Below are positions 3,060-13,577 of a DNA stretch of 64,000 nucleotides, in pieces (within the stretch, counting starts at the first letter, position 1; the number at the start of each line of letters is the position of its first letter). The DNA comes from a bacterium BMS3Abin14 (GTDB taxonomy: Bacteria > BMS3Abin14), in assembly GCA_002897695.1 (NCBI GenBank), contig BDTG01000008.1, forward strand, positions 1 to 64,000, in the 5' to 3' direction. The notes beneath the pieces are model-generated. The model was given only the letters and a program-made list of their open reading frames with translations. It ran no database searches and was not told the DNA's origin. Position numbers and translations under genes: made by a program.

Positions 3060-4412
3060 TCACAACAACTCATGCTTCTTCATCCGGTAGCGCAGCGTAT
3101 CCCGGCTGATGCCGAGTAGCCGGGCGGCCTTTGACTGGTTCTCCCCTGATCGCTCCAGCGCACATTCGATGAGTACCTTTTCCGTTTCGTCGAGGTTAAG
3201 GGTCTTTCCCTCGATCACCGAGGACGGATGGGCGGGAACGGACCTGCTCAGGGACAGGTCCTCGACCCCGATGGCCGTCTTCGCCGAGAGGATCATGGCC
3301 CGCTCGATAACGTTCTTGAGCTCCCTGACGTTTCCCGGCCAGTTGTAGGCCTCCATGGCTTTTATCGCCGCTCCGGTGACCTCCCTGACGTCCTTTCCCA
3401 GGTCGCGGTTGAACTGGGCGAGGAAGTGCTCCGCCAAAGGCGCGACGTCATCGGGCCGTTCCCGCAGAGGGGGAATATTTATGGGAATGACGTTAAGCCG
3501 GTAGTACAGGTCCTCACGGAAAGTCTGCTCCCGGATCTTTCCCTCCAGGTCCTTGTTGGTGGCCGCGATGACCCGGACGTCAACGGTGATATCCCTGGTT
3601 CCGCCCACACGCTTGAATGTCCAGTTCTCGAGAAACCTCAGGATCTTGGCCTGGAGCGCCATGGGCATGTCGCCGATCTCGTCTAAAAAGAGGGTCCCGC
3701 CGTCCGACAGCTCGAACTGTCCCTTCTTCAGGCTCTTGGCATCCGTGAACGCTCCCTTCTCGTGGCCCATGAGCTCGCTTTCCAGAAGCTCCCTGGGCAG
3801 GGCGGTGCAGTTCACCGGCATGAACGGCATGTCCCCTCGCCTGCTCTCGTAGTGGATGGCCTGGGCCAGAAGGTCCTTTCCTGTCCCGCTTTCGCCGGTA
3901 ATGAGGACGGTGGTTGCGTCCGACAGGGCAATTTTGCGCCCGACGTCGAGAACCTCCTCCATCTCCCGGCTGCGATGGATGATATTGTTAAAACCGTACC
4001 GTCTGTTTTCCTTCTCGCGATATCGGGTAACCTCGTCCTTCAGGCGCAGGGTCTCGAGTGCCTTGTCCACGGTTATCCGGACCTCGTCGAGGTTGAAGGG
4101 CTTCGGCAGATAATCGAAGGCCCCGTCCTTCATGGCCCGGACCGCCACGGACAGGTCGGATGTGGCCGTGATCATGACGACGGCACATTCGGGCCTGTTT
4201 TCCCTGATGCCCCGGAGCAGGTCCATGCCGCTCATGCCGGGGAGCTGGATGTCCAGGAGCACCAGGTCCGGATCCTCCATCTCCATGACGGCGAGGCCCT
4301 CCTCGGCCGAGGCCGCCATCAATACCTCGTACCCGTGCTCCACGAGGTTCTGCTGGAGGGACCAGCGGATAAGGTATTCATCGTCTATTACGAGTATTCT
4401 GCCTTTAGCCAT
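3060..4412 (-). CDS. Sigma-54-dependent NtrC-family response regulator
   Basis: Start chosen at ATG 4412 (GGTGAAG upstream) rather than the GTG at 4424, giving 450 residues. The receiver domain is at 1-120, with Asp54 in the LLDIQLPG context. The AAA+ domain (about 140-375) has Walker A GESGTGKD. The sigma-54 contact loop reads GAFTDA instead of GAFTGA. A Fis-type helix-turn-helix closes the protein (SKAARLLGISRDTLRYRMKK). It follows the haem-motif histidine kinase and almost certainly forms a pair with it, activating sigma-54 promoters. The targets are unknown, but neighbouring cytochrome genes are the obvious candidates. Confidence 0.93.
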   Translation of the reverse strand: MAKGRILVIDDEYLIRWSLQQNLVEHGYEVLMAASAEEGLAVMEMEDPDLVLLDIQLPGMSGMDLLRGIRENRPECAVVMITATSDLSVAVRAMKDGAFDYLPKPFNLDEVRITVDKALETLRLKDEVTRYREKENRRYGFNNIIHRSREMEEVLDVGRKIALSDATTVLITGESGTGKDLLAQAIHYESRRGDMPFMPVNCTALPRELLESELMGHEKGAFTDAKSLKKGQFELSDGGTLFLDEIGDMPMALQAKILRFLENWTFKRVGGTRDITVDVRVIAATNKDLEGKIREQTFREDLYYRLNVIPINIPPLRERPDDVAPLAEHFLAQFNRDLGKDVREVTGAAIKAMEAYNWPGNVRELKNVIERAMILSAKTAIGVEDLSLSRSVPAHPSSVIEGKTLNLDETEKVLIECALERSGENQSKAARLLGISRDTLRYRMKKHELL

Positions 4413-4499
4413 TTTCTTCACCACTGAGTGTGCGGAGACAACCTTTTGGCTCTTGGTTAATAAGCCGCTCTCCGCTAAACGGCACGTTGTTTTACCACC

Positions 4500-4552: not shown

Positions 4553-6073
4553 TTACGTCGAATCCGAATTATCAGCCGGTGATTCTGATTTAGGCAGATA
4601 CACCCGGAACACTGAGCCCTTTCCCACCTCGCTGTCCACGGTGATACGACCATGGTGCTGCTCGACCAGGCGCAGGGTGATGGGGAGCCCCAGCCCGGTG
4701 CCGTGGACCTTGGTGGTGAAGAATGGAGCGAAGATGCTCTTTATTTTATCACTATCTATTCCCGCTCCCGTGTCGGTAAAGGAGATGACGACGTAATCCT
4801 CAACGGGGTGAACCTCACCCAGTTCGGGGTCGGCCGATGGACACCCGGCGATTGTGAGTACGCCGCCGTCCGGCATCGCCTGAATGGCGTTCACCGCCAT
4901 ATTGAGAAAGACCTGCCGGATAAGGTCCGGATCAAGGGGGACCATGGGCATTGAGGGGTCCATATCAAGACTGACGTCGATTCCATAATTCTTTATCTCG
5001 GGCATCCCTTCGATGAGGAAGAGGGTCTTATGCACCAGATCCGCTATGTCGGTGGGCACGATTTTCGGCACTGAAGGCCTGGCGAAATCCAGCAGATCCC
5101 TGATTGTTGAATCCAGGCGCTCGATGAGCTTGAGGATCTCCTGGGTAACGGGGTAACGGGGATCATCCTCCCCGAACTCACCGGCGAGGACCTGGGTCGC
5201 GCCGGCGATTCCGGCCAAGGGGTTTTTGATCTCGTGGGCGATGCCGGCGGCCAGTTCGCCAATGGTAGCCAGACGGTCGGCCCTCTTGAGCTGTTCGGCA
5301 TGGAATTGCTTCAGCTCCCTGTCGGAGCTGTCCAGCCGGCTGATCATGGAGTTGAAGCTGTCGGCCAGGTGTCCCAACTCATCATTCCTTCTCAGGGAAA
5401 CGCGGGCGGTAAGGTCGCCCTTCCGCACTCTGGCCATGGTGCGAACGAGCCTGTTGACGGGGATATTAACCAGAAGCCACAGGCTGATGCTTATGGCGAC
5501 GACCACCAGGATAACCGTGGTGAGGGTGGTGGCAAAGAGAAACTTGCTATTTCTGGCGATGCGCTCCTCCGTATCCTGCATGGAGACGCACACGTCGAGA
5601 ATACCCAGCAGTTCCTTCTCCTCCCCATGGCAGCGGTGGCACTCCAGGGAGTTTTCGATGGGCTCAATACTGCAGAAAGCCCTCTGCTCCGTCCCCTCGG
5701 ACCTGAAGGGCCTGCCCCTCTCGTCGCTCTTGTATACCGAGTAGTCCAGGACATCCACAGTCTTTCCGACCTCACTGGGCTCAGCGGAGTAGGTTATGAT
5801 GCCATCTTCGTCGAAGATTCTCACCGTCCTGATCCCTGGAACAACGCCCACGGTGCTGACGATCTTCTGAACGTCCTTCTGGCAAAAACCGCTCATCTCC
5901 ACAACGATGGAGTTCATGACGGAAGCCGTCAGGATGGTGGCCTTGGTCATGGCCTCCTCGATGGCCTGGTGGGTCAGGTTTTTCTTGATGAGGAAGGAGG
6001 AGGTCCCCAGGGCCACCGCCAGGATTACCGCGATGAAGAGATTGACCTTAAATGCCAGTGATTTTAGAAACAT
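4553..6073 (-). CDS. Sensor histidine kinase with a CxxCH motif in its extracytoplasmic domain
   Basis: 506 residues from ATG 6073. TM1 lies at about 7-27 and TM2 at about 179-203, enclosing a 150-residue extracytoplasmic sensor, then HAMP (about 203-256), HisKA with His280 in GIAHEIKNPL, and an HATPase domain with the N box near VFLNMAVNAIQAM and the G boxes DTGAGID and GTGLGLPI. The sensor contains ECHRCHGEE (Cys145, Cys148, His149), the covalent c-haem attachment signature, next to further Cys residues (64, 134, 162). Haem-bearing periplasmic sensors are known in metal- and sulfate-reducing bacteria, so I infer redox or gas sensing. It lies 30 bases after the small selenoprotein gene and before its NtrC-type partner. 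Confidence 0.9.
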   Translation of the reverse strand: MFLKSLAFKVNLFIAVILAVALGTSSFLIKKNLTHQAIEEAMTKATILTASVMNSIVVEMSGFCQKDVQKIVSTVGVVPGIRTVRIFDEDGIITYSAEPSEVGKTVDVLDYSVYKSDERGRPFRSEGTEQRAFCSIEPIENSLECHRCHGEEKELLGILDVCVSMQDTEERIARNSKFLFATTLTTVILVVVAISISLWLLVNIPVNRLVRTMARVRKGDLTARVSLRRNDELGHLADSFNSMISRLDSSDRELKQFHAEQLKRADRLATIGELAAGIAHEIKNPLAGIAGATQVLAGEFGEDDPRYPVTQEILKLIERLDSTIRDLLDFARPSVPKIVPTDIADLVHKTLFLIEGMPEIKNYGIDVSLDMDPSMPMVPLDPDLIRQVFLNMAVNAIQAMPDGGVLTIAGCPSADPELGEVHPVEDYVVISFTDTGAGIDSDKIKSIFAPFFTTKVHGTGLGLPITLRLVEQHHGRITVDSEVGKGSVFRVYLPKSESPADNSDST

Positions 6074-6098: not shown

Positions 6099-6116
6099 CG
6101 GGGTCACCCGACCCCG
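6099..6116 (-). other. Candidate bacterial SECIS hairpin of the small selenoprotein
   Basis: On the transcript this reads CGGGGUC-GGGU-GACCCCG, a perfect seven-base-pair stem with a G-rich four-base loop. It starts 11 nt after the UGA at 6130-6128, so the loop lies 18 nt from the UGA. Both distances fit the SelB-binding mini-hairpin described for E. coli fdhF. The selD gene in this window has a comparable hairpin with a CGGGU loop. Confidence 0.7.
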
Positions 6117-6262
6117 ATACACGACAGTCAGAGCAGGGTTGCGTTGAACATAGTTTCCGCCCACTGCCCTTGCGAGATGCCCACAAAAAGGGCAACTCCT
6201 CCCGCGGCCAACAGAATGATTTTCAGCATGTCCTTTACTCTGCCCATCGGCGCTCTGTTCAT
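6104..6262 (-). CDS. Probable selenoprotein: small single-helix membrane protein with a UxxC motif
   Basis: The ATG at 6262 overlaps the TGA stop of the TlpA-like gene (ATGA), so translation is probably coupled. Read conventionally, the frame stops at TGA 6130-6128 after 44 codons. Read through, it continues U-L-S-C-I-G-V-G and ends at TGA 6106-6104, giving 52 residues. Residues 13-29 form one transmembrane helix, followed by GISQGQWAETMFNATLL and then Sec45-Leu-Ser-Cys48. A seven-base-pair hairpin with a GGGU loop begins exactly 11 nt after the TGA, the spacing known for bacterial SECIS elements. Small membrane proteins ending in a CxxCIGIG-like motif (the CD1871A-type family, from memory) are the likely cysteine homologues. 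The function is unknown, and a redox role beside thioredoxin-fold and cytochrome proteins is inferred. Met12 is an alternative start. Confidence 0.75.
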
Positions 6263-7431
6263 TGGGTGCCCCGTTTTTGCATCATGAGTTTCATCCTCTC
6301 CATGGGTTCGAGCTTCTTTTTTACCTCCAGGGAAAACCCCAACTGTTTCAGTCTGTCCACAACGAGTGGCGACAACATCGCGACGGCCTCGTTTATTTTC
6401 CCCGCATCCTCCAGGATCAACGCCTCGTCCAGGTCAACCAGGGGCTTTGGGACTGCCTGTGATTCCTGTGAAGACCCCGCAATGGATTCAGCCGGGCCGG
6501 CGGATACTGTGGAATCCGCCATGAGATCCGCGACCCGGCCCGCCAGGAGTTCAATACTGTCGTCAAGCCTGTTTTCCTTCAGGAGCAGGTGGGCCAGAAG
6601 GAGACGGGTCTCAGCCCGTTCAGGATCAAGATGGTAGGCTTTCCGAAGAAAAGTCCGTGCTGCATCGGTATTCCCCTCCCGAATGTCGGAATACGCGAGG
6701 TAGATTGGAGGGTCGGGAAAGTGGGTATCCTCCTCGGCCGCCTGCTGAAATTCCGGGATAGCCTTGGAGGAAAGCCCCCTCGCCATCAAACTCTTTCCCA
6801 TGCCGAAATGCAGCATCGCCTGTCGATTCGGCATGTACCCCGGCGCTTTGGCGGCGGTCTCCTTCTTCTCATGGTACAGGCCCAACTCCTTACGGACGGC
6901 AGTATCAAGGTCCAGGTAGCCCGCGGTGGGGTAACCGGACAGGTCAAAAACCACTGTCCCATCGCGGTTGATGACCGCAGTGGTAGGGGTGGCGATAACA
7001 CCCCACTCGTTGAAGTTCTTGAGCCCCTTATCCACAAGAACGGTAAAGGAGATCTCTTTTTCCCGGATCACCTTCTTTATCCTGGCCATATCACCGGCAT
7101 CCAGGCGTTGGTTTTCAACGTTAACCGCCAGGATCTTCAGGCCTTTTTCCCCATACTTTCGGTCCAGTTTTGCCAGATCGTCCATCTCCTTTAAGGAATG
7201 CCCGCTCCAGGTGGCCCAGAAGAAAAGGAGAATAGCCGAAGAATCCCCGTAATCCGAAAGGTTATGTGTATTTCCTTCCAGGTCCTCCGCCGCGATGGGA
7301 AGCGCCTGGTCACCGGCCTTAAGGTTTCTGAAGGCGGCCGCCGCCCCGGACACCGAAAGCAGAAAAAATCCAAGAAGGATCGAAACTACAACTGATCGCG
7401 AAAGATTTCCGCGCAGAACTCTACTCAACAT
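6259..7431 (-). CDS. TlpA-like thioredoxin-fold protein with TPR domain, no CxxC
   Basis: Start preferred at ATG 7431 (GGTGAGG upstream), 390 residues; an in-frame GTG lies at 7437. A signal peptide ends near AAAA at residue 33 and the mature part begins FRNLKAGD, as in the paralogue at 8445-9473. The thioredoxin/AhpC fold covers about 37-185. Where the catalytic pair should be, the sequence reads TWSGHS, so both cysteines are serine. The cis-Pro region is kept (ATPTTAVI). TPR-like helices fill about 205-300, followed by a Ser/Ala-rich linker and a charged tail. Without the CxxC it cannot be an ordinary thiol reductase. It directly precedes the selenoprotein gene, whose UxxC could supply the missing redox pair; this is inference. 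Confidence 0.82.
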   Translation of the reverse strand: MLSRVLRGNLSRSVVVSILLGFFLLSVSGAAAAFRNLKAGDQALPIAAEDLEGNTHNLSDYGDSSAILLFFWATWSGHSLKEMDDLAKLDRKYGEKGLKILAVNVENQRLDAGDMARIKKVIREKEISFTVLVDKGLKNFNEWGVIATPTTAVINRDGTVVFDLSGYPTAGYLDLDTAVRKELGLYHEKKETAAKAPGYMPNRQAMLHFGMGKSLMARGLSSKAIPEFQQAAEEDTHFPDPPIYLAYSDIREGNTDAARTFLRKAYHLDPERAETRLLLAHLLLKENRLDDSIELLAGRVADLMADSTVSAGPAESIAGSSQESQAVPKPLVDLDEALILEDAGKINEAVAMLSPLVVDRLKQLGFSLEVKKKLEPMERMKLMMQKRGTQ

Positions 7432-7736
7432 TCGCACACCTCACCAGGGGGAAAAACTTAATCCTTTCTAACAGGGATGGAGGGGATAAATTCCCGAACA
7501 ACCTCTTCCAGAACCCCGGTTTCCATGGAAAAAGATACCTCCCTCACCCCCACCTCTGTCCTCCCCCCCCAGGGGAGAGGAAGAATGAGGATAGGGTCCA
7601 TCAGGAAGGGAGGAAGAATTAGGAATATGCCTCACTTTATGCTCGCAATGACAGGCGCTTGTCGCTGCACCTGTTTTTTCTCCTCTGGACACTGGACTCT
7701 GGACTGTGATTTTCCCTGCTGCTCACAGTCACAGCA
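7432..7736. other. 305-base gap holding the second copy of the long repeat
   Basis: No gene is supported. The central 190 bases are the long dispersed repeat also found at 2766-2967. At 7679-7706 there is a TCTGGACACTGGACTCTGGACT array of the heptamer family. The gap breaks an otherwise compact set of genes, so a promoter or processing site is possible, but none is clear. Confidence 0.55.
7464..7652 (+). repeat. Long dispersed repeat, copy 2
   Basis: Matches 2766-2967 in the same orientation from TTTCTAACAGGGAT through the CCCCAGGGGAGAGG core to ATGCTCGCAATGAC. It is slightly shorter than copy 1 because of small indels in the C-rich part. It separates the five-haem cytochrome gene from the TlpA-like gene. 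Confidence 0.85.
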
Positions 7737-8429
7737 TTAAAGCAGATGGTACTTCCTGTCCGAACTGTGGGGATCGTGACACTTGGTGCACACCGCGTTC
7801 CTGCGCTCTTCGATATGTTTTTGGCTCAGGTTCTGGTCATGGCAGCTCAGGCACAGTTCCTTGCCGGTTGCCCTGAGAAAGTATTTGTTGCGGGATCCAT
7901 GCGGGTCGTGACAGGAGGTGCAGGACCCTGCCGCCACCGGTCCGTGGACAAATTTACCTTTTTTAATGGGATCGTGACAATCGCTGCAGAGGGCCTCGTC
8001 ATTCCCGGCGATGGAATAATCCCCCTTTGCCGCGCCGGGATGGCAAGTGTCACAGGAAGAAACATCCGTTTCAATGTGATACCTGTATCCCTCCTGTTTT
8101 CCAATGAATATCTTCAGCTTCAACCGTTCAATGCCGGGGGCAGCCAGCGTCAGTTCATGTCTTCCTTTCGCCAGGTTTAAACTGTTAACGAAGATCTCTT
8201 TCTTTATGGGCGCAAACCCGATTGTCTTTCCATTATCGAAGATCTCCACCGTCTTTCCTTCATGATATCCCTCGACCTTGGCGATAATAAGGACTTTACC
8301 GCTCTTCAGGAACACCTCCTCGGCAGGCGTCAGAAGGTGAAACCTGGACCCGGAAGAATAAACAGTCGCAATCGAAAAAGAAAACACAAGCAGAACAGCC
8401 AACAGCGTCCCACCCACGAATTTTCCCAT
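7737..8429 (-). CDS. Periplasmic pentahaem c-type cytochrome with N-terminal beta domain
   Basis: 230 residues from ATG 8429, with GGGGAG upstream. A signal peptide occupies about 1-25. Residues 30-115 look like a small beta-sandwich (FLKSGKVLIIAKV, GRHELTLAAPG) with no haem. Five CxxCH sites follow: CDTCH, CSDCH, CTSCH, CLSCH and CTKCH, several in the CHDPHGS or CHDPHSS context of doubled-CXXCH cytochromes. It overlaps the 3' part of the gap after the second TlpA-like gene by a short distance (8445 to 8429), which indicates one operon. It is probably an electron carrier working with the 15-motif cytochrome at 9500-10798. Confidence 0.9.
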   Translation of the reverse strand: MGKFVGGTLLAVLLVFSFSIATVYSSGSRFHLLTPAEEVFLKSGKVLIIAKVEGYHEGKTVEIFDNGKTIGFAPIKKEIFVNSLNLAKGRHELTLAAPGIERLKLKIFIGKQEGYRYHIETDVSSCDTCHPGAAKGDYSIAGNDEALCSDCHDPIKKGKFVHGPVAAGSCTSCHDPHGSRNKYFLRATGKELCLSCHDQNLSQKHIEERRNAVCTKCHDPHSSDRKYHLL

Positions 8430-8444
8430 GTTGTCTCCCCTGTA

Positions 8445-9473
8445 TTATTTCGTTTTTCCTTCCATTTTCAGCTGCCTGTGGATGGCATCACGATAGGTGG
8501 TCATAGCCTTCCGAATCTCACCCTTTTTCTCGTACACCTGGCCAAGCCTGTACAACGCCAGGGCCGGGTCGGGATTGAGGGCTGCGGCCTTCTGCAGTTG
8601 AGCCTCTGCCGCATCAAGATCACCTGCGGCCAGCAAAACCGTTCCCAATCCAATCCTGGCGTCATGGGATCCGGGGTCCGATTCAAGCGCCTTCTCGAAC
8701 TGGGCCTTGGCCTCCCCGAAATTCTCCGCCTCGATGTATAATCGGCCTGCCATCAACCTCGCGTCAACCAGGGATGAGTCGAGCTTCAGGGCCTTCAAAA
8801 GCTTGGGGAGGGCCTTGCTTCCCATCCCCCTGCTGATAAGAATACGGGCCGTCTGCATTTCCCGCTGGGCCTCCTTGGCCTCAGGGGTAAGCTCCTGAAT
8901 CTCGTGCTTCATCTCGGACCGGGCCAGCTCCTCCTCGCTGATCACGCCCAGAAGCACCTTGCTCTTATCCATCAGTGCCTGTTCGAAGTCGCTTCCGTAG
9001 GAGGAATATTCAAAAACGAAGCGGCCTTCCTGATCGATGATGGCCGTGGAGGGAAATATGAACAGCCCGTACTTTCCGTAGATCTCTCTATCCTTGTCAA
9101 GTAGCACCGGAAACTTCAGGGCCAGCTTTTCCTTCAGGGACTGAAGATCCTCAATGCTCTCATCATTTTCGGATATAGCGAAAACGGAAAGCCCTTTATC
9201 TTTCAGGCTCGCATAGATATTGGTCAGCCCGTTCAACGCTCTGATGGACCGGTCCTGGACGCCCTTGACGAAACACAGGACGACCACTTTACCCTTCTCG
9301 GCGGAAAGGGAATGCTCCACACCCGACAGGTCCTTCAGCGTAAAATCGGGCGGTATTTCCCCATCTTTCAGGTTTCGAAATGCGGAGCATACCGCCGGTG
9401 GTGAAAGGAAGAAAACCGCCAGGGCGAGCACAACGGTCATGCGGGCCACATACCCGGACATTCTGCTTCTCAT
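8445..9473 (-). CDS. Peroxiredoxin/TlpA-like protein with TPR repeats, no CxxC
   Basis: 342 residues from ATG 9473. The N-terminus is a signal peptide ending around PAVCSA, followed by FRNLKDGE as in the paralogue at 6259-7431. The AhpC/TSA-like fold spans about 38-180. In place of the active-site loop it reads LCFVKGVQDRS, so a single cysteine remains and the CxxC pair is missing. At least three TPR motifs fill about 210-335 (ALESDPGSHDARIGLG and ALNPDPALALYRLG are clear). I infer a periplasmic scaffold or cytochrome-maturation helper rather than a classical reductase. It is 15 bases from the pentahaem cytochrome gene. Confidence 0.82.
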   Translation of the reverse strand: MRSRMSGYVARMTVVLALAVFFLSPPAVCSAFRNLKDGEIPPDFTLKDLSGVEHSLSAEKGKVVVLCFVKGVQDRSIRALNGLTNIYASLKDKGLSVFAISENDESIEDLQSLKEKLALKFPVLLDKDREIYGKYGLFIFPSTAIIDQEGRFVFEYSSYGSDFEQALMDKSKVLLGVISEEELARSEMKHEIQELTPEAKEAQREMQTARILISRGMGSKALPKLLKALKLDSSLVDARLMAGRLYIEAENFGEAKAQFEKALESDPGSHDARIGLGTVLLAAGDLDAAEAQLQKAAALNPDPALALYRLGQVYEKKGEIRKAMTTYRDAIHRQLKMEGKTK

Positions 9474-9499: not shown

Positions 9500-10798
9500 T
9501 CAGTTGACTACCGGGTTGATCCTGTCATATCCCTTCGGTTTATGACAACCAACCTCGCATGAACCGCCATTCTTGGTCTGTGTATACTTTATAGGCAGCA
9601 TCCACATCTTTCCGAAAGGGACCTCCCTTCGGATATGTTTCGGCTGATCTCCGGCGTGCACCTCGTGGCAGGCCTTGCATGATCGCCCTTTTTCCCGGTT
9701 GACATGGACAAAATGGAGGTTCTTGTCGCCATTTCTGAAACCGGTCAGGGTGGTGGTGAAGCGATCAAGGGCGATATCTTTGTTGTGACAGTCAAAACAC
9801 AATGCGTAACTTTTGGTGCTATAGGGCAGATAGAACTCGGCTGGGAACGGTTTCTTGAGAATCTTGGTAAAATCAGACCCATGAGGATTGTGACAGGCAT
9901 AACAGTCGTTCTGCCGAACCGGGCCGTGGACGTACTTGGCTTCCCTCACCTTTTTGCCCATCTCCTTATGACAGGTATAGCAGATCTGCTTGGCGGAAGC
10001 TTTAAGCTGCCTTGGATAATCCGAGGCGTGGGGCGTGTGACAGACCGTACACTTTTTCTCTTTCAAGGCGCCGTGTTTGACCGTGGAGTCCCTAATATAT
10101 TTTTCCATGTCCTTGTGGCACCTGAAACACAGGTCCTGGCCTTCGGCTTTCAACTGGTACCGAAAATCGGTGGAGTGAGGATCGTGGCAGTTGGAACAAT
10201 CCTCGGCGGCCGGCTTGTGCTTGTATTTGAGTTCAAACTGCGCTTTTCTGTCCAGGTGGCACAGGAAACACAGGTCCGAGCCCTGTAACTCCAGCAGGTT
10301 TTTGTAATCGGACGAGTGAGGATTGTGGCAGATATTGCAATCCCCGGCGGCAACCGGCCCATGCACAAACTTCTTGTCGGTCTTATTGTTCTCGTGGCAG
10401 GAGAAGCACAGCGCACTCATGGTCTTCTTCTTCAGCTGTTTCTCGGAATTGGACTGATGCGGATCATGACAGGCGATGCACTCACCTTTCTTGATGGGGC
10501 CATGAACGACCTTCCCTGTCTCCTTGGTTTCATGGCACAGGTAGCAAAGGGCCTTTCCCTCGGCCGGGAACTTGAAGTCGCTTTTTTTGGAATGGGTGGG
10601 ATGCCCGGATTTCCCTGCGGTATGGCAGATAGTGCACTGCCCTACTGCCACCGGGCCATGAACGAATTTGGCCTTCCCCATGCCGGAGTGGCATTTGGCC
10701 GTGACACAGCTATCAGCGTAAGCCGTATTCCCACTAGCCAGAACCAGCCCCAAGGACAAGAAGACCGCAAAGATTGATACTGCCGCCAGTCGCCTCAT
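9500..10798 (-). CDS. Large multihaem cytochrome with 15 haem-type motifs
   Basis: Start ATG 10798 with GGGAGGG upstream, 432 residues. A more distal start at 10837 would lie in front of the signal peptide and has no ribosome site. The signal peptide ends near AYA. Thirteen standard CxxCH sites are visible, plus two non-standard ones: CVTAKCH (CX4CH) at the N-terminus and CEVGCH (CX3CH) near the C-terminus. Most sites sit in alternating HGP...C..CH...PH repeats of the doubled-CXXCH kind, suggesting an extended haem wire. It is the first gene after a strong promoter and probably the main electron conduit of the module. Whether it is periplasmic or exported to the outside cannot be told. Confidence 0.9.
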   Translation of the reverse strand: MRRLAAVSIFAVFLSLGLVLASGNTAYADSCVTAKCHSGMGKAKFVHGPVAVGQCTICHTAGKSGHPTHSKKSDFKFPAEGKALCYLCHETKETGKVVHGPIKKGECIACHDPHQSNSEKQLKKKTMSALCFSCHENNKTDKKFVHGPVAAGDCNICHNPHSSDYKNLLELQGSDLCFLCHLDRKAQFELKYKHKPAAEDCSNCHDPHSTDFRYQLKAEGQDLCFRCHKDMEKYIRDSTVKHGALKEKKCTVCHTPHASDYPRQLKASAKQICYTCHKEMGKKVREAKYVHGPVRQNDCYACHNPHGSDFTKILKKPFPAEFYLPYSTKSYALCFDCHNKDIALDRFTTTLTGFRNGDKNLHFVHVNREKGRSCKACHEVHAGDQPKHIRREVPFGKMWMLPIKYTQTKNGGSCEVGCHKPKGYDRINPVVN

Positions 10799-10872
10799 TT
10801 TATCCCTCCCATGCCTAAACAAATTAAACGGCTCCAATAATATTTTTCACAATGTGCTTGAAATCACGCAAC

Positions 10873-10901: not shown

Positions 10902-11236
10902 CAAAAAGGGTGTGCGGGGCTGCACAACGTCCCTGAGGAACGAGGGGGCACGGGTGCGTGGGAGAAGCATAGTCCAGAGTCCAAAGGAAAAACGGACGCC
11001 CCTCGACGAGGCTCGGGACAGGCGGCGACACGGGGACGCGATGAGTGTGCCTGTCATTGCGAGCGACTGAAAGGAGCGCGGCAATCTCGGGTGGCCTGTC
11101 GCGGCGAAGTTCAGGAAACGAAGACGGAAGCTGCGGGTTCGTTGCGGCGCCCTACGGTCCCACACGGGATCGCGTCGCACAGTTGAAAGCTCGCGATGAC
11201 TTGGCAACACTGGACTCTGGACTCTGGACTTTCTTT
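10902..11236. other. Repeat-rich gap between cytochrome operon and ccsB
   Basis: No gene is supported; open frames here have no ribosome sites and translate repeats. It contains heptamer-type AGTCCAGAGTCCA at 10973-10986, a REP-like element at about 11048-11092 (GTCATTGCGAGCG ... GCGGCAATCTCGG) and ACTGGACTCTGGACTCTGGA at 11210-11229. Confidence 0.6.
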
Positions 11237-12073
11237 TTACGCGTAGCTGTGCAGGCCAGACAGGAGAAAATTGACGCCGAAGTAGGTGAAGATCACCGCC
11301 GAAAATCCGACAATGGAGAGTATCGCAGCCCGCCGGCCCTGCCAACCTCGCGTAAGACGGGCATGGAGATAGGCCGCGTAGATGAACCAGGTGATGAGAG
11401 ACCATGTCTCCTTGGGATCCCAGCTCCAATAGGTTCCCCACGCATAATTGGCCCACGCTGCTCCGGTAATGATCCCCAGGGAAAGGAGCGGAAAACCGAC
11501 AGCAACGGACTTGTAGTTGACCTCATCGAGCATCTTTGATTCAGGAAAGAGGGATACCAGAGAGCCTTCCCCGCCCATCCTTTCCGCTCTGTTCTTGACC
11601 AGGTACATTATAGACACGCCGAATGAAACGGCGAATGATCCGTAGGCGACAAAAGACGTGACCACATGGGCGATAAGCCAGTTGCTCTGAAGCGCCGGCA
11701 CCAGGGGCTGAATCTGGTCGGGAAACAGCAGTGCGTTAGCCGCAAGGATGACGAAGGCAAGGGGGGAGACAAACGCCCCCACCGCTTTCTGCTTGAACCG
11801 GTATTCCACCACCAGATAGGCGATCATGACGCACCACCCGAAGAACCCGAGGGATTCGTACATGTTGGATAGAGGCGCATGGCCAATGCCCATGCGGTAG
11901 GACTCGACCCACCGTATGATCATGGCTGCGGCCTGAGTAACGACACCCAGCCAGACCATTCCCGTGGCCACATTTCCCACGACCCGGCCCCTGAATGCAA
12001 GATAACCGACGTAGAAAAAGGTGGCAAACAGGTAGGCGAAAGTGGCTATTCCGAACAGGGTGGAGCTGCTCAT
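11237..12073 (-). CDS. ccsB: Cytochrome c biogenesis protein CcsB (ResC), haem-handling membrane protein
   Basis: 278 residues from ATG 12073 (GGAGATAA upstream). It has about eight hydrophobic helices and the WWD signature WGTYWSWDPKETWSL near residue 215-230, which binds haem on the periplasmic side in System II cytochrome c maturation. Conserved histidines are present in the loops (IAHVVTSF, LHSYA). It lies 11 bases after resB, the other half of the haem-ligation complex. This pair would attach haem to the many CxxCH proteins in the window. The size fits the CcsB family of split, non-fused systems. Confidence 0.95.
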   Translation of the reverse strand: MSSSTLFGIATFAYLFATFFYVGYLAFRGRVVGNVATGMVWLGVVTQAAAMIIRWVESYRMGIGHAPLSNMYESLGFFGWCVMIAYLVVEYRFKQKAVGAFVSPLAFVILAANALLFPDQIQPLVPALQSNWLIAHVVTSFVAYGSFAVSFGVSIMYLVKNRAERMGGEGSLVSLFPESKMLDEVNYKSVAVGFPLLSLGIITGAAWANYAWGTYWSWDPKETWSLITWFIYAAYLHARLTRGWQGRRAAILSIVGFSAVIFTYFGVNFLLSGLHSYA

Positions 12074-12084
12074 TATTTTATCTC

Positions 12085-13518
12085 CTATTCCTTCCCAGGG
12101 TCCTTCTTTAATACCTGTTTTAAGGCCGTCAGCGCACCGTTGAATTCCTTTTCAAAACTTGCGAGGTTTCTGTTGGTGGAACCGGCCATGAGAACAGCTG
12201 TATTATCAGGATCAAGCTCGATCCTGAGCCACACCCTCCTGTGGGGAACGAAGAAGGCGACATACAGGCCGCCAATCATGACGAAGCATGCGATCCATAC
12301 CAGAGGAACACCTGGATCCCACGCAACCTGAAGACCCGTGAATTCCCGGATATTTGCATCCCTTATCCGGAAATAGACCGGCCCCCCCCGCAGTTTGTCC
12401 CTGTCGGCTGCTGCCATGGAGACGAAAAAATCCTGCCTGGCGCCTGACGCGATCCTGCTCATTCGAACGGCGGGACGGCCTCCGATATAGGACGGCATTA
12501 TCTGTTGTATCCCATAGGTGGCTGAATCGCCAATAACATTGAAGGGCTGCCCCGCGGCAACGGTGACGGAAGGTGCCGCCACCTTGCCTGAGGGGTCAAG
12601 GACGTCCAGGGTTACGGTAGAACTCCGGTCAACGCCGTAGCTTGACTGATAGAAGTAGATTCCATCGACGATCAGGGGGTGGTTGACCTCGATCCTCTTT
12701 TTCATTACCTCTTTGCCATCCCGGATGACCACCAGATCGCTGAAATAATCCTTCGGCTGCTGAGTGCCGGGATAGTATATCACCTGAAAGTCGTCACAAC
12801 GGATGTCAAATGGAAGTTTGATGACCGCGTTCCTGCCGCGAAGGGGGACCCTGTTAATGGTCTGGCCCTCAGCGATTGACACGAACCCCTTGAATCCAAC
12901 CGCACCGCCGTAAACGGCGCCAACGGCCAGCATCAGAATGCTCAGATGGACCACGTAGGCCCCCATGCGGCCGTACCAGCCCCGATCCACAAAGAAGGTG
13001 ACGGCCTCCTCGCTGCGGTCTTCCCTGAACTTGCCGAAACGATCGGCCAGGAGGTCCCGTACCCTCTCTTCGGTCTCTTCAGGCGAAACACCCCGGCGCA
13101 CCGATCCGCGGAACCTCATGCGCCTGAAAAGAACATCGTCCAGGACTGAGGGAGACCGGGTCATCAGACGCCACGCCCGGGGGAATCTCTTTATGGAACA
13201 CAGTGTGATGTTGATCAGAAGGAGAGCCAGAAGGGTCAGAAACCACCATGACCGGTACATGTCGTCCAGGGCGAGGGCCTGGAACAGCCTATATGTTCCG
13301 GACCCGTACTCATTCAGGTACTGTTCCGGGCTGCCGTTCTGAAGGACAACGGTTCCCACGATGGACGTCATCGCCAGGATGATGAGAAGAAAGATGGCGA
13401 GGGTCACCGAGGCGAGTGAGTCGTAGACTCCTTTGAGGAATGATTTTTTGGTGCTTTTGGCTGAAGGTTTTCCGGTATTTTCCGTAGATTTCACTTTATT
13501 CCGATTTTCCGAGGTCAC
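12085..13518 (-). CDS. resB: Cytochrome c biogenesis protein ResB (Ccs1)
   Basis: I prefer GTG 13518 (GAAGG upstream; 477 residues). The longer frame from 13563 would begin inside a GC-rich hairpin. There are three N-terminal membrane helices (near DSLASVTLAIFLLI, WWFLTLLALLLINI and YVVHLSILMLAVGAVYG), then a large periplasmic beta-rich domain and a final helix (LVWIACFVMIGGLYVAFF). This is the ResB/Ccs1 arrangement that works with CcsB to deliver haem to apocytochromes. It lies between a small cytochrome gene and ccsB in the same direction. Confidence 0.92.
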   Translation of the reverse strand: MTSENRNKVKSTENTGKPSAKSTKKSFLKGVYDSLASVTLAIFLLIILAMTSIVGTVVLQNGSPEQYLNEYGSGTYRLFQALALDDMYRSWWFLTLLALLLINITLCSIKRFPRAWRLMTRSPSVLDDVLFRRMRFRGSVRRGVSPEETEERVRDLLADRFGKFREDRSEEAVTFFVDRGWYGRMGAYVVHLSILMLAVGAVYGGAVGFKGFVSIAEGQTINRVPLRGRNAVIKLPFDIRCDDFQVIYYPGTQQPKDYFSDLVVIRDGKEVMKKRIEVNHPLIVDGIYFYQSSYGVDRSSTVTLDVLDPSGKVAAPSVTVAAGQPFNVIGDSATYGIQQIMPSYIGGRPAVRMSRIASGARQDFFVSMAAADRDKLRGGPVYFRIRDANIREFTGLQVAWDPGVPLVWIACFVMIGGLYVAFFVPHRRVWLRIELDPDNTAVLMAGSTNRNLASFEKEFNGALTALKQVLKKDPGKE

Positions 13519-13549
13519 TTGGCCTTCATTATATTGAGGTTGGCATATA

Positions 13550-13577
13550 ATGGGGGGCGGCACCCGCCGCCCCCCGT
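13550..13577 (-). terminator. GC-rich hairpin downstream of the small cytochrome gene
   Basis: GGGGGGCGGC-ACCC-GCCGCCCCCC forms a ten-base-pair stem 30 bases after the small cytochrome stop and just before resB. There is no long T-run, so it may attenuate or protect RNA rather than fully terminate. Confidence 0.45.

Follow-up and report, generated by a model that had tools for sequence, protein, structure and literature searches.

Paired ResA-like proteins without the CxxC motif beside a 13-haem cytochrome in bacterium BMS3Abin14: possible cytochrome assembly chaperones

We analyzed a stretch of 64,000 nucleotides from bacterium BMS3Abin14 (NCBI GenBank assembly GCA_002897695.1, contig BDTG01000008.1, positions 1 to 64,000 of the forward strand; hereafter the window), which encodes two paralogous proteins, A and B, made up of a signal peptide, a TlpA/ResA-like domain and tetratricopeptide repeats (TPR), from which the CxxC pair of the active site is missing. 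Judging from the sequences compared, the loss of the thiols is genuine, conserved and of ancient origin. The best explanation, to which we give a probability of about 0.5, is that A and B are thiol-free ResA/CcmG-like holdases or assembly chaperones with CcmI/NrfG-like TPR arms, dedicated to the 13-haem cytochrome encoded next to B (cytA) and perhaps to the 5-haem cytochrome encoded between the two (cytB). This proposal is based on sequence, conservation, fold match, clade and gene order. The gene following A encodes a small membrane protein with a C-terminal motif predicted to contain selenocysteine (UxxC protein), whose relation to the loss of thiols is also considered below.

Proteins A and B lack CxxC and resemble ResA

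At the position of the active site A (392 residues) reads WATW-SGHS (site stretch LLFFWATWSGHSLKEMDDL), and B (342 residues) reads FVKGV-QDRS (site stretch VVLCFVKGVQDRSIRALNGL), so that the loss of CxxC from both paralogues, described in an earlier note on this DNA, was confirmed. Export signals were recognized by eye in the two proteins, followed in each by the sequence FRNLK, the common mature start that the same note had indicated. There is no cysteine in A; B has two, of which C30 lies within the signal region and C67 is replaced by S or G in three orthologues. Both proteins match Pfam AhpC-TSA (69.4 bits for A and 64.1 bits for B, with a cut-off of 26) and TPR families; as A has no cysteine at all and B no invariant one, the possibility that they are peroxiredoxins (AhpC/TSA) was rejected. 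The NCBIfam cut-off for ResA (170 bits) is not reached (scores of 75 and 68 for A and B, respectively), and the CcmH/CycH (CcmI) TPR profile gives 27.9 bits with B, below its cut-off of 42, A being unlisted. AlphaFold models were built from three-row alignments, with a mean predicted local distance difference test (pLDDT) score of 58.3 for A, which is weak, and a better value of 78.5 for B. The best matches of both models in the PDB are ResA-type structures: 4nmu (4nmu_D) and 1st9 for A, with target template modelling (TM) scores of 0.79-0.82, and 2h1b for B, with a target TM score of 0.92. The structural evidence for the fold of A is weak; taken with the Pfam matches, the models indicate that a ResA-like thioredoxin fold is retained in A and B, as had been proposed, in the absence of a CxxC active site.

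The missing thiols are conserved among orthologues and define a clade

A search for orthologues (E≤1e-25) gave matches in 9 of 61 genomes, all of them from the window's family. The order cytA-B-cytB-A is retained in most of these nine; cytA is separate from A in G005 and G009 (genomes are designated G followed by a number, the window genome being G000), and in G010 two frames are needed to read the A gene and no B gene was found. None of the orthologues that could be read retains CxxC (8/8 for A and 7/7 for B are without it). Conservation of an SxxS pattern, a check suggested in the earlier note, holds for A, where the columns invariant in the eight orthologues include S78, S81 and E84, and not for B, which instead keeps Q73, D74, R75 and S76 in all seven. 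Since the site columns are invariant across the orthologues of both proteins, the absence of CxxC is not a matter of chance. A scan of named genomes added one distant match, from Sumerlaeota, in which the thioredoxin-like part has NPQS at the site.

With a profile of A, matches at E≤1e-18 were obtained in 27 of 386 genomes. A tree was made with 76 TlpA domains (47 Cys-less and 29 CxxC rows), from which the site columns were excluded and three duplicate rows removed, 9 of 88 proteins having been left out beforehand (six short ones and three without a domain match). Only two changes between CxxC and its absence are needed on this tree, as compared with an average of 23.4 when labels are shuffled, and the sole CxxC row within the Cys-less clade is a CNRC protein of G366. 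The residues of the 47 Cys-less rows are S (42), C (2), A (2) and T (1) at the second cysteine position, and S (33), Q (8), N (3) and others (3) at the first; a basic residue (R, K or H) precedes the second position in 43 of them, versus P in 19/29 CxxC rows, and cis-Pro is retained in 47/47. These rows are related by descent and the counts do not represent independent events. Such a conserved alternative pattern indicates that the site changed rather than decayed.

The clade includes a third Cys-less paralogue, found mostly beside a dnaK-like gene, with WATW[SN]PRS, WSTWSPRS, WATWSSRS or WAMWSPRS at the site, and the tree places A, B and this paralogue as descendants of a common Cys-less ancestor. 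In the window's family, one to three copies of it are located directly 3' of the dnaK-like gene (loci L046-L053). The window genome has 13 TlpA-like matches, ten with CxxC and three without, namely A, B and the dnaK-linked protein.

Cys-less TlpA-TPR proteins accompany a 13-haem cytochrome

All 13 haem-binding sites counted in cytA are ordinary CXXCH motifs, and its closest match among solved structures in sequence is 6r2q chain A (E 2e-35), which we take to be MtrA of the MtrCAB complex, the database listing naming it otherwise. Genomes of the f259 group carry cytA without any TlpA-TPR neighbour (L246, L248, L249, L251 and L252) and provide a useful functional contrast.

The cytA profile identified 28 of the 386 genomes at E≤1e-90. 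A Cys-less TlpA-TPR protein is encoded in the cytA cluster of 17 of them, belonging to 11 families (G000, G001, G002, G004, G008, G010, G097, G158, G186, G237, G241, G248, G271, G296, G320, G359 and G366; the protein of G158 ends at a contig edge and that of G010 is the split one), and two more (G121 and G385) have a more degenerate thioredoxin-like protein there. In G271 and G248 the position of B is occupied by a protein with TPRs only. Within the phylum of G271, cytA was detected in 32 of 295 genomes (E≤1e-140), and the 32 loci, examined besides that of G271 itself, include 23 with a Cys-less neighbour; among the 25 neighbours with a readable site, CxxC was present in none, S at the second position in 25 and S at the first in 20. 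As a control, loci were compared with 1.5-kb flanks, and a gene with at least four CXXCH motifs was found at 16 of 30 Cys-less loci versus 4 of 22 CxxC loci. The presence of a Cys-less pair beside cytA in many families suggests a function in holding or assembling the cytochrome rather than in reducing it.

A possible holding function, and its structural alternative

If A and B are assembly chaperones, the process could be as follows. Both would be exported, as their signal peptides indicate, and apocytochrome segments with CXXCH would bind, with no exchange of disulfides, in the groove of the ResA-like domain, where Ser takes the second cysteine position, while the TPR arm would hold the remaining chain or dock on the ResB-CcsB haem lyase encoded next door. 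Another protein would then reduce the CXXCH disulfides: in the window's lineage the candidate, from gene order, is the UxxC membrane protein with its predicted selenocysteine, to which a 4Fe-4S membrane protein would supply electrons, and in other lineages this could be done by ordinary CxxC TlpA proteins. A wider version of this idea, in which a thiol-free branch of ResA/CcmG gave rise to paired ResA-TPR holdases for one widespread 13-haem cytochrome and in the window's family a selenocysteine UxxC/4Fe-4S module replaces the CcdA-ResA route, is put forward tentatively.

Several observations weigh against the chaperone proposal. There is no TlpA-TPR neighbour of cytA in 9 of the 28 genomes, two of which (G005 and G009) carry A elsewhere, nor at 9 of the 32 loci in the phylum of G271. 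Many proteins of that phylum have SANS or SPGS, so that a basic residue ahead of the second Ser is not a feature of all. No cytochrome gene is near some members of the clade, among them the dnaK-linked paralogue, and the clade must therefore have other roles besides cytochrome handling. Finally, the window genome has its ten CxxC TlpA-like proteins and a CcdA, so that ordinary thiol reduction is available to it.

The gene neighbourhood fits a maturation role and a structural role alike. In the latter, A and B would remain bound to the mature cytochromes as a scaffold or spacer of a periplasmic electron conduit and would not be maturation factors, an alternative that we regard as rather unlikely, even if it is the strongest competitor of the chaperone proposal. 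It would be in agreement with the tie to the cytA family, which is stronger than that to haem lyase genes in general (no CcsB or ResB match was obtained within the examined locus of G271, G248, G241, G097, G237 and G320), and two sizeable TPR proteins per cytochrome would suit a scaffold. On the other hand, haem lyase genes adjoin cytA in nine genomes (G000, G001, G004, G005, G008, G009, G158, G286 and G296), and ResA-type folds are known from the maturation of cytochromes and from other reactions of thiols and are not known from conduits.

The UxxC protein and its 4Fe-4S partner

The ATGA overlap between A and the UxxC gene reported in the earlier note is real (TGA at 6259-6261, ATG at 6260-6262), and so is the co-occurrence of both genes: the UxxC gene is directly 3' of A, and intact, in six of the nine genomes of the window's family that have A, while in the remaining three it starts and is then masked, is truncated, or lies in a masked region (one genome each). 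Seven A-UxxC junctions were readable, four with the ATGA overlap and three with TAG followed by ATG 0-1 bases on. In G296, from another phylum, the whole order ResB-CcsB-cytA-B-cyt5-A-UxxC-4Fe-4S-histidine kinase is found. The UxxC protein scores 19.0 bits with the CD1871A family profile (NF040920), below its cut-off of 32, and has a transmembrane helix (identified by eye and by a rule of stretches without charge) and a C-terminal [CU]-x-x-C-I-G tail. In tails of the form [CU]-x-x-C-[IV]-G the first residue is encoded by UGA in the window's family, G296, G115 and G320, and is Cys in other genomes. From these features, the small protein is a predicted selenoprotein related to the CD1871A family.

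A hairpin directly 3' of the UGA could be aligned in 10 sequences, with 69 of 70 cells paired and two pairs showing two-sided changes, as compared with at most 57.1% of cells paired in slid alignments. Folding of single sequences was only mildly better than that of shuffled ones (z -0.8 to -1.8), and an Rfam scan for a selenocysteine insertion sequence (SECIS) at the hairpin gave no match. SelB is above its cut-off in the window genome and in 8 of 12 family genomes.

In G004, G005, G008 and G296 the UxxC gene is followed by that of a 4Fe-4S membrane protein, which has some 280 residues in the first three. A match to this protein was obtained in 9 of the 12 family genomes; in the window genome it is on contig C4. 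There and in G001 its gene is divergent from ccmE-ccmF-ccmH-ccmI (L132 745-6174, G000:C4; L133), with ccmG absent from the interval between ccmF and ccmH, and the window genome has genes of both System I and System II. Gene associations of this kind, like that of the UxxC and 4Fe-4S genes with CcsB in G007, connect the two with cytochrome maturation and speak for the chaperone proposal. The succession of a selenocysteine-containing CD1871A-type protein and a 4Fe-4S membrane protein was noted in several genomes (window 6104-6262; L039, L043, L044 and L137), and a 26-CXXCH cytochrome gene is 3' of the 4Fe-4S gene in L043 and L044, ahead of the kinase gene in the latter, and is not found in the window. 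Matches to the CD1871A profile were obtained in 28 of 386 genomes, and a 4Fe-4S protein is present at most of those loci; where a TlpA neighbour is clear it keeps CxxC, except in the window's family. The UxxC and 4Fe-4S membrane proteins might form a possible transmembrane electron route to periplasmic thiols.

The earlier note had suggested that the thiols were lost because redox work had moved to the small protein. In its developed form, A would be the substrate-binding arm and UxxC the redox centre of a two-part reductase, the thiols having been lost after UxxC took over. The overlap or abutment of stop and start at 7/7 readable junctions, the 4Fe-4S gene 3' of UxxC in four genomes and the fact that CD1871A-type proteins elsewhere are often beside a TlpA protein would all be in line with it. 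Yet the absence of the cysteines predates UxxC and extends beyond it, G007 has UxxC and the 4Fe-4S protein beside CcsB without an A gene, and B is likewise thiol-free and is not beside UxxC. In clusters of G271, G248, G241, G097 and G237, Cys-less TlpA-TPR proteins are encoded beside cytA without a UxxC gene, and a pattern similar to that recovering the known UxxC genes gave no match at the 32 cytA loci in the phylum of G271; a UxxC partner thus does not explain the missing thiols, and we consider the two-part reductase improbable.

UxxC was rejected as the cause of thiol loss because it is younger than the Cys-less clade, and two other possible causes are not supported. CcdA is present in 4 of the 12 family genomes, including that of the window, for which an absence of CcdA is thus unsupported as the reason. 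VKOR was found in 4/12, again including the window genome, and DsbB in 0/12; a lack of disulfide-forming enzymes is likewise unsupported, the Ser sites being identical with or without VKOR. At another locus of the window genome (L008, G000:C33:112881-113342) two CxxC TlpA genes are adjacent, and in one of them the TlpA domain is fused to a multihaem region of CXXCH motifs.

Organization of the gene cluster

The genes are arranged on the minus strand in the order ResB, CcsB, cytA, B, cytB, A, UxxC protein, histidine kinase and NtrC-type regulator (Table 1). The intergenic regions at 7440-7740 and about 11000-11235 have GGACTCTGGACT-like and other repeated words in common, as seen by eye.

Table 1. 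Features of the cytA cluster in the window.
Feature	Position	Strand	Evidence or remarks
ResB haem lyase subunit (System II)	12085..13563	minus	PF05140, 343.6 bits (cut-off 24.6)
CcsB haem lyase subunit (System II)	11237..12073	minus	TIGR03144, 296.2 bits (cut-off 187.6)
cytA, cytochrome with 13 CXXCH, conserved anchor of the module	9500..10837	minus	Pfam scan, profile search, motif count
Protein B, signal peptide, TlpA/ResA-like domain and TPR repeats, without CxxC	8445..9473	minus	Pfam, alignment, model
Codons Q73-D-R-S76 of B at the CxxC position	9246..9257	minus	Invariant in 7/7 orthologues
cytB, cytochrome with 5 CXXCH, in the B-A interval	7737..8429	minus	Pfam scan, motif count
Protein A, signal peptide, TlpA/ResA-like domain and TPR repeats, without cysteine	6259..7437	minus	Pfam, alignment, model
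Codons S78-G-H-S81 of A at the CxxC position	7195..7206	minus	S78 and S81 invariant in 8/8 orthologues
UxxC protein, small membrane protein related to the CD1871A family, with U-L-S-C at the C terminus	6104..6262	minus	In-frame UGA codon at 6128-6130
Hairpin of 7 bp with GGGU loop directly 3' of UGA, likely SECIS element	6099..6116	minus	Pairing in 10 sequences
Histidine kinase with one CXXCH in the sensor part	4553..6073	minus	Related kinases in L038, L039, L044, L144 and L149 likewise
NtrC-type sigma-54 response regulator	3060..4424	minus	Next gene after the kinase

A CXXCH-bearing histidine kinase and an NtrC regulator accompany the cytA module in the window (4553-6073) and in L144 and L149. 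It could be considered that A and B signal the maturation or redox state to this pair, whose genes are retained in the clusters of G271 and G241 and partly in that of G359; nevertheless, kinase, regulator and cytA are kept without TlpA-TPR genes in G085, G226 and G355, which makes a sensory role very improbable. Binding of haem by A and B, or its delivery to the cytochromes, also raised in the earlier note, would suit their haem lyase and multihaem cytochrome neighbours and is the least credible of the explanations, given that no His or Cys is invariant in either set of orthologues and the only invariant Met residues are M3, in the signal peptide, for A, and M324 for B.

Comparison with known cytochrome maturation systems

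A and B share their fold, export, cis-Pro and nearby haem lyase genes with ResA/CcsX of System II, CcmG/DsbE of System I and the TlpA family. Moreover, ResA and CcmG have, like A (invariant E84), a Glu three residues past the second cysteine position. Unlike ResA and CcmG, A and B are without CxxC, carry C-terminal TPR repeats, are paired at one cytochrome and remain under the ResA cut-off. The TPR arms bring them close to the chaperones CcmI, NrfG and SirG, periplasmic proteins encoded beside haem lyase and multihaem cytochrome genes, which, unlike A and B, are not known to have a TlpA domain. As for the UxxC protein, it aligns with the CD1871A family, where a 4Fe-4S neighbour is also common, and differs in having selenocysteine instead of Cys.

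A literature search revealed no description of a cytA assembly module of this type. The closest parallels are the SirEFGH and NrfEFG sets, which are likewise extra maturation factors for one multihaem cytochrome, although they are of System I type, include a redox-active thiol protein and serve an atypical haem site, in contrast with the 13 ordinary CXXCH of cytA (PMC6976685; PMC12285233). Two apocytochrome chaperones, SirG and CcmI, are used together for SirA with a dedicated lyase (PMC6976685), and the C-terminal helix of NrfA is bound by the TPRs of NrfG and CcmI (PMC12285233). Whether CcmG and ResA act as reductants only or also as apocytochrome holdases has been debated from Cys-to-Ser mutants (PMC3601427). 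A natural thiol-free branch beside one multihaem cytochrome in many bacterial families makes this question directly testable. If the chaperone proposal is correct, A and B would be evidence that a 13-haem cytochrome has assembly factors of its own, and the two roles of ResA/CcmG proteins, as holdases and in redox chemistry, would have become separated in nature.

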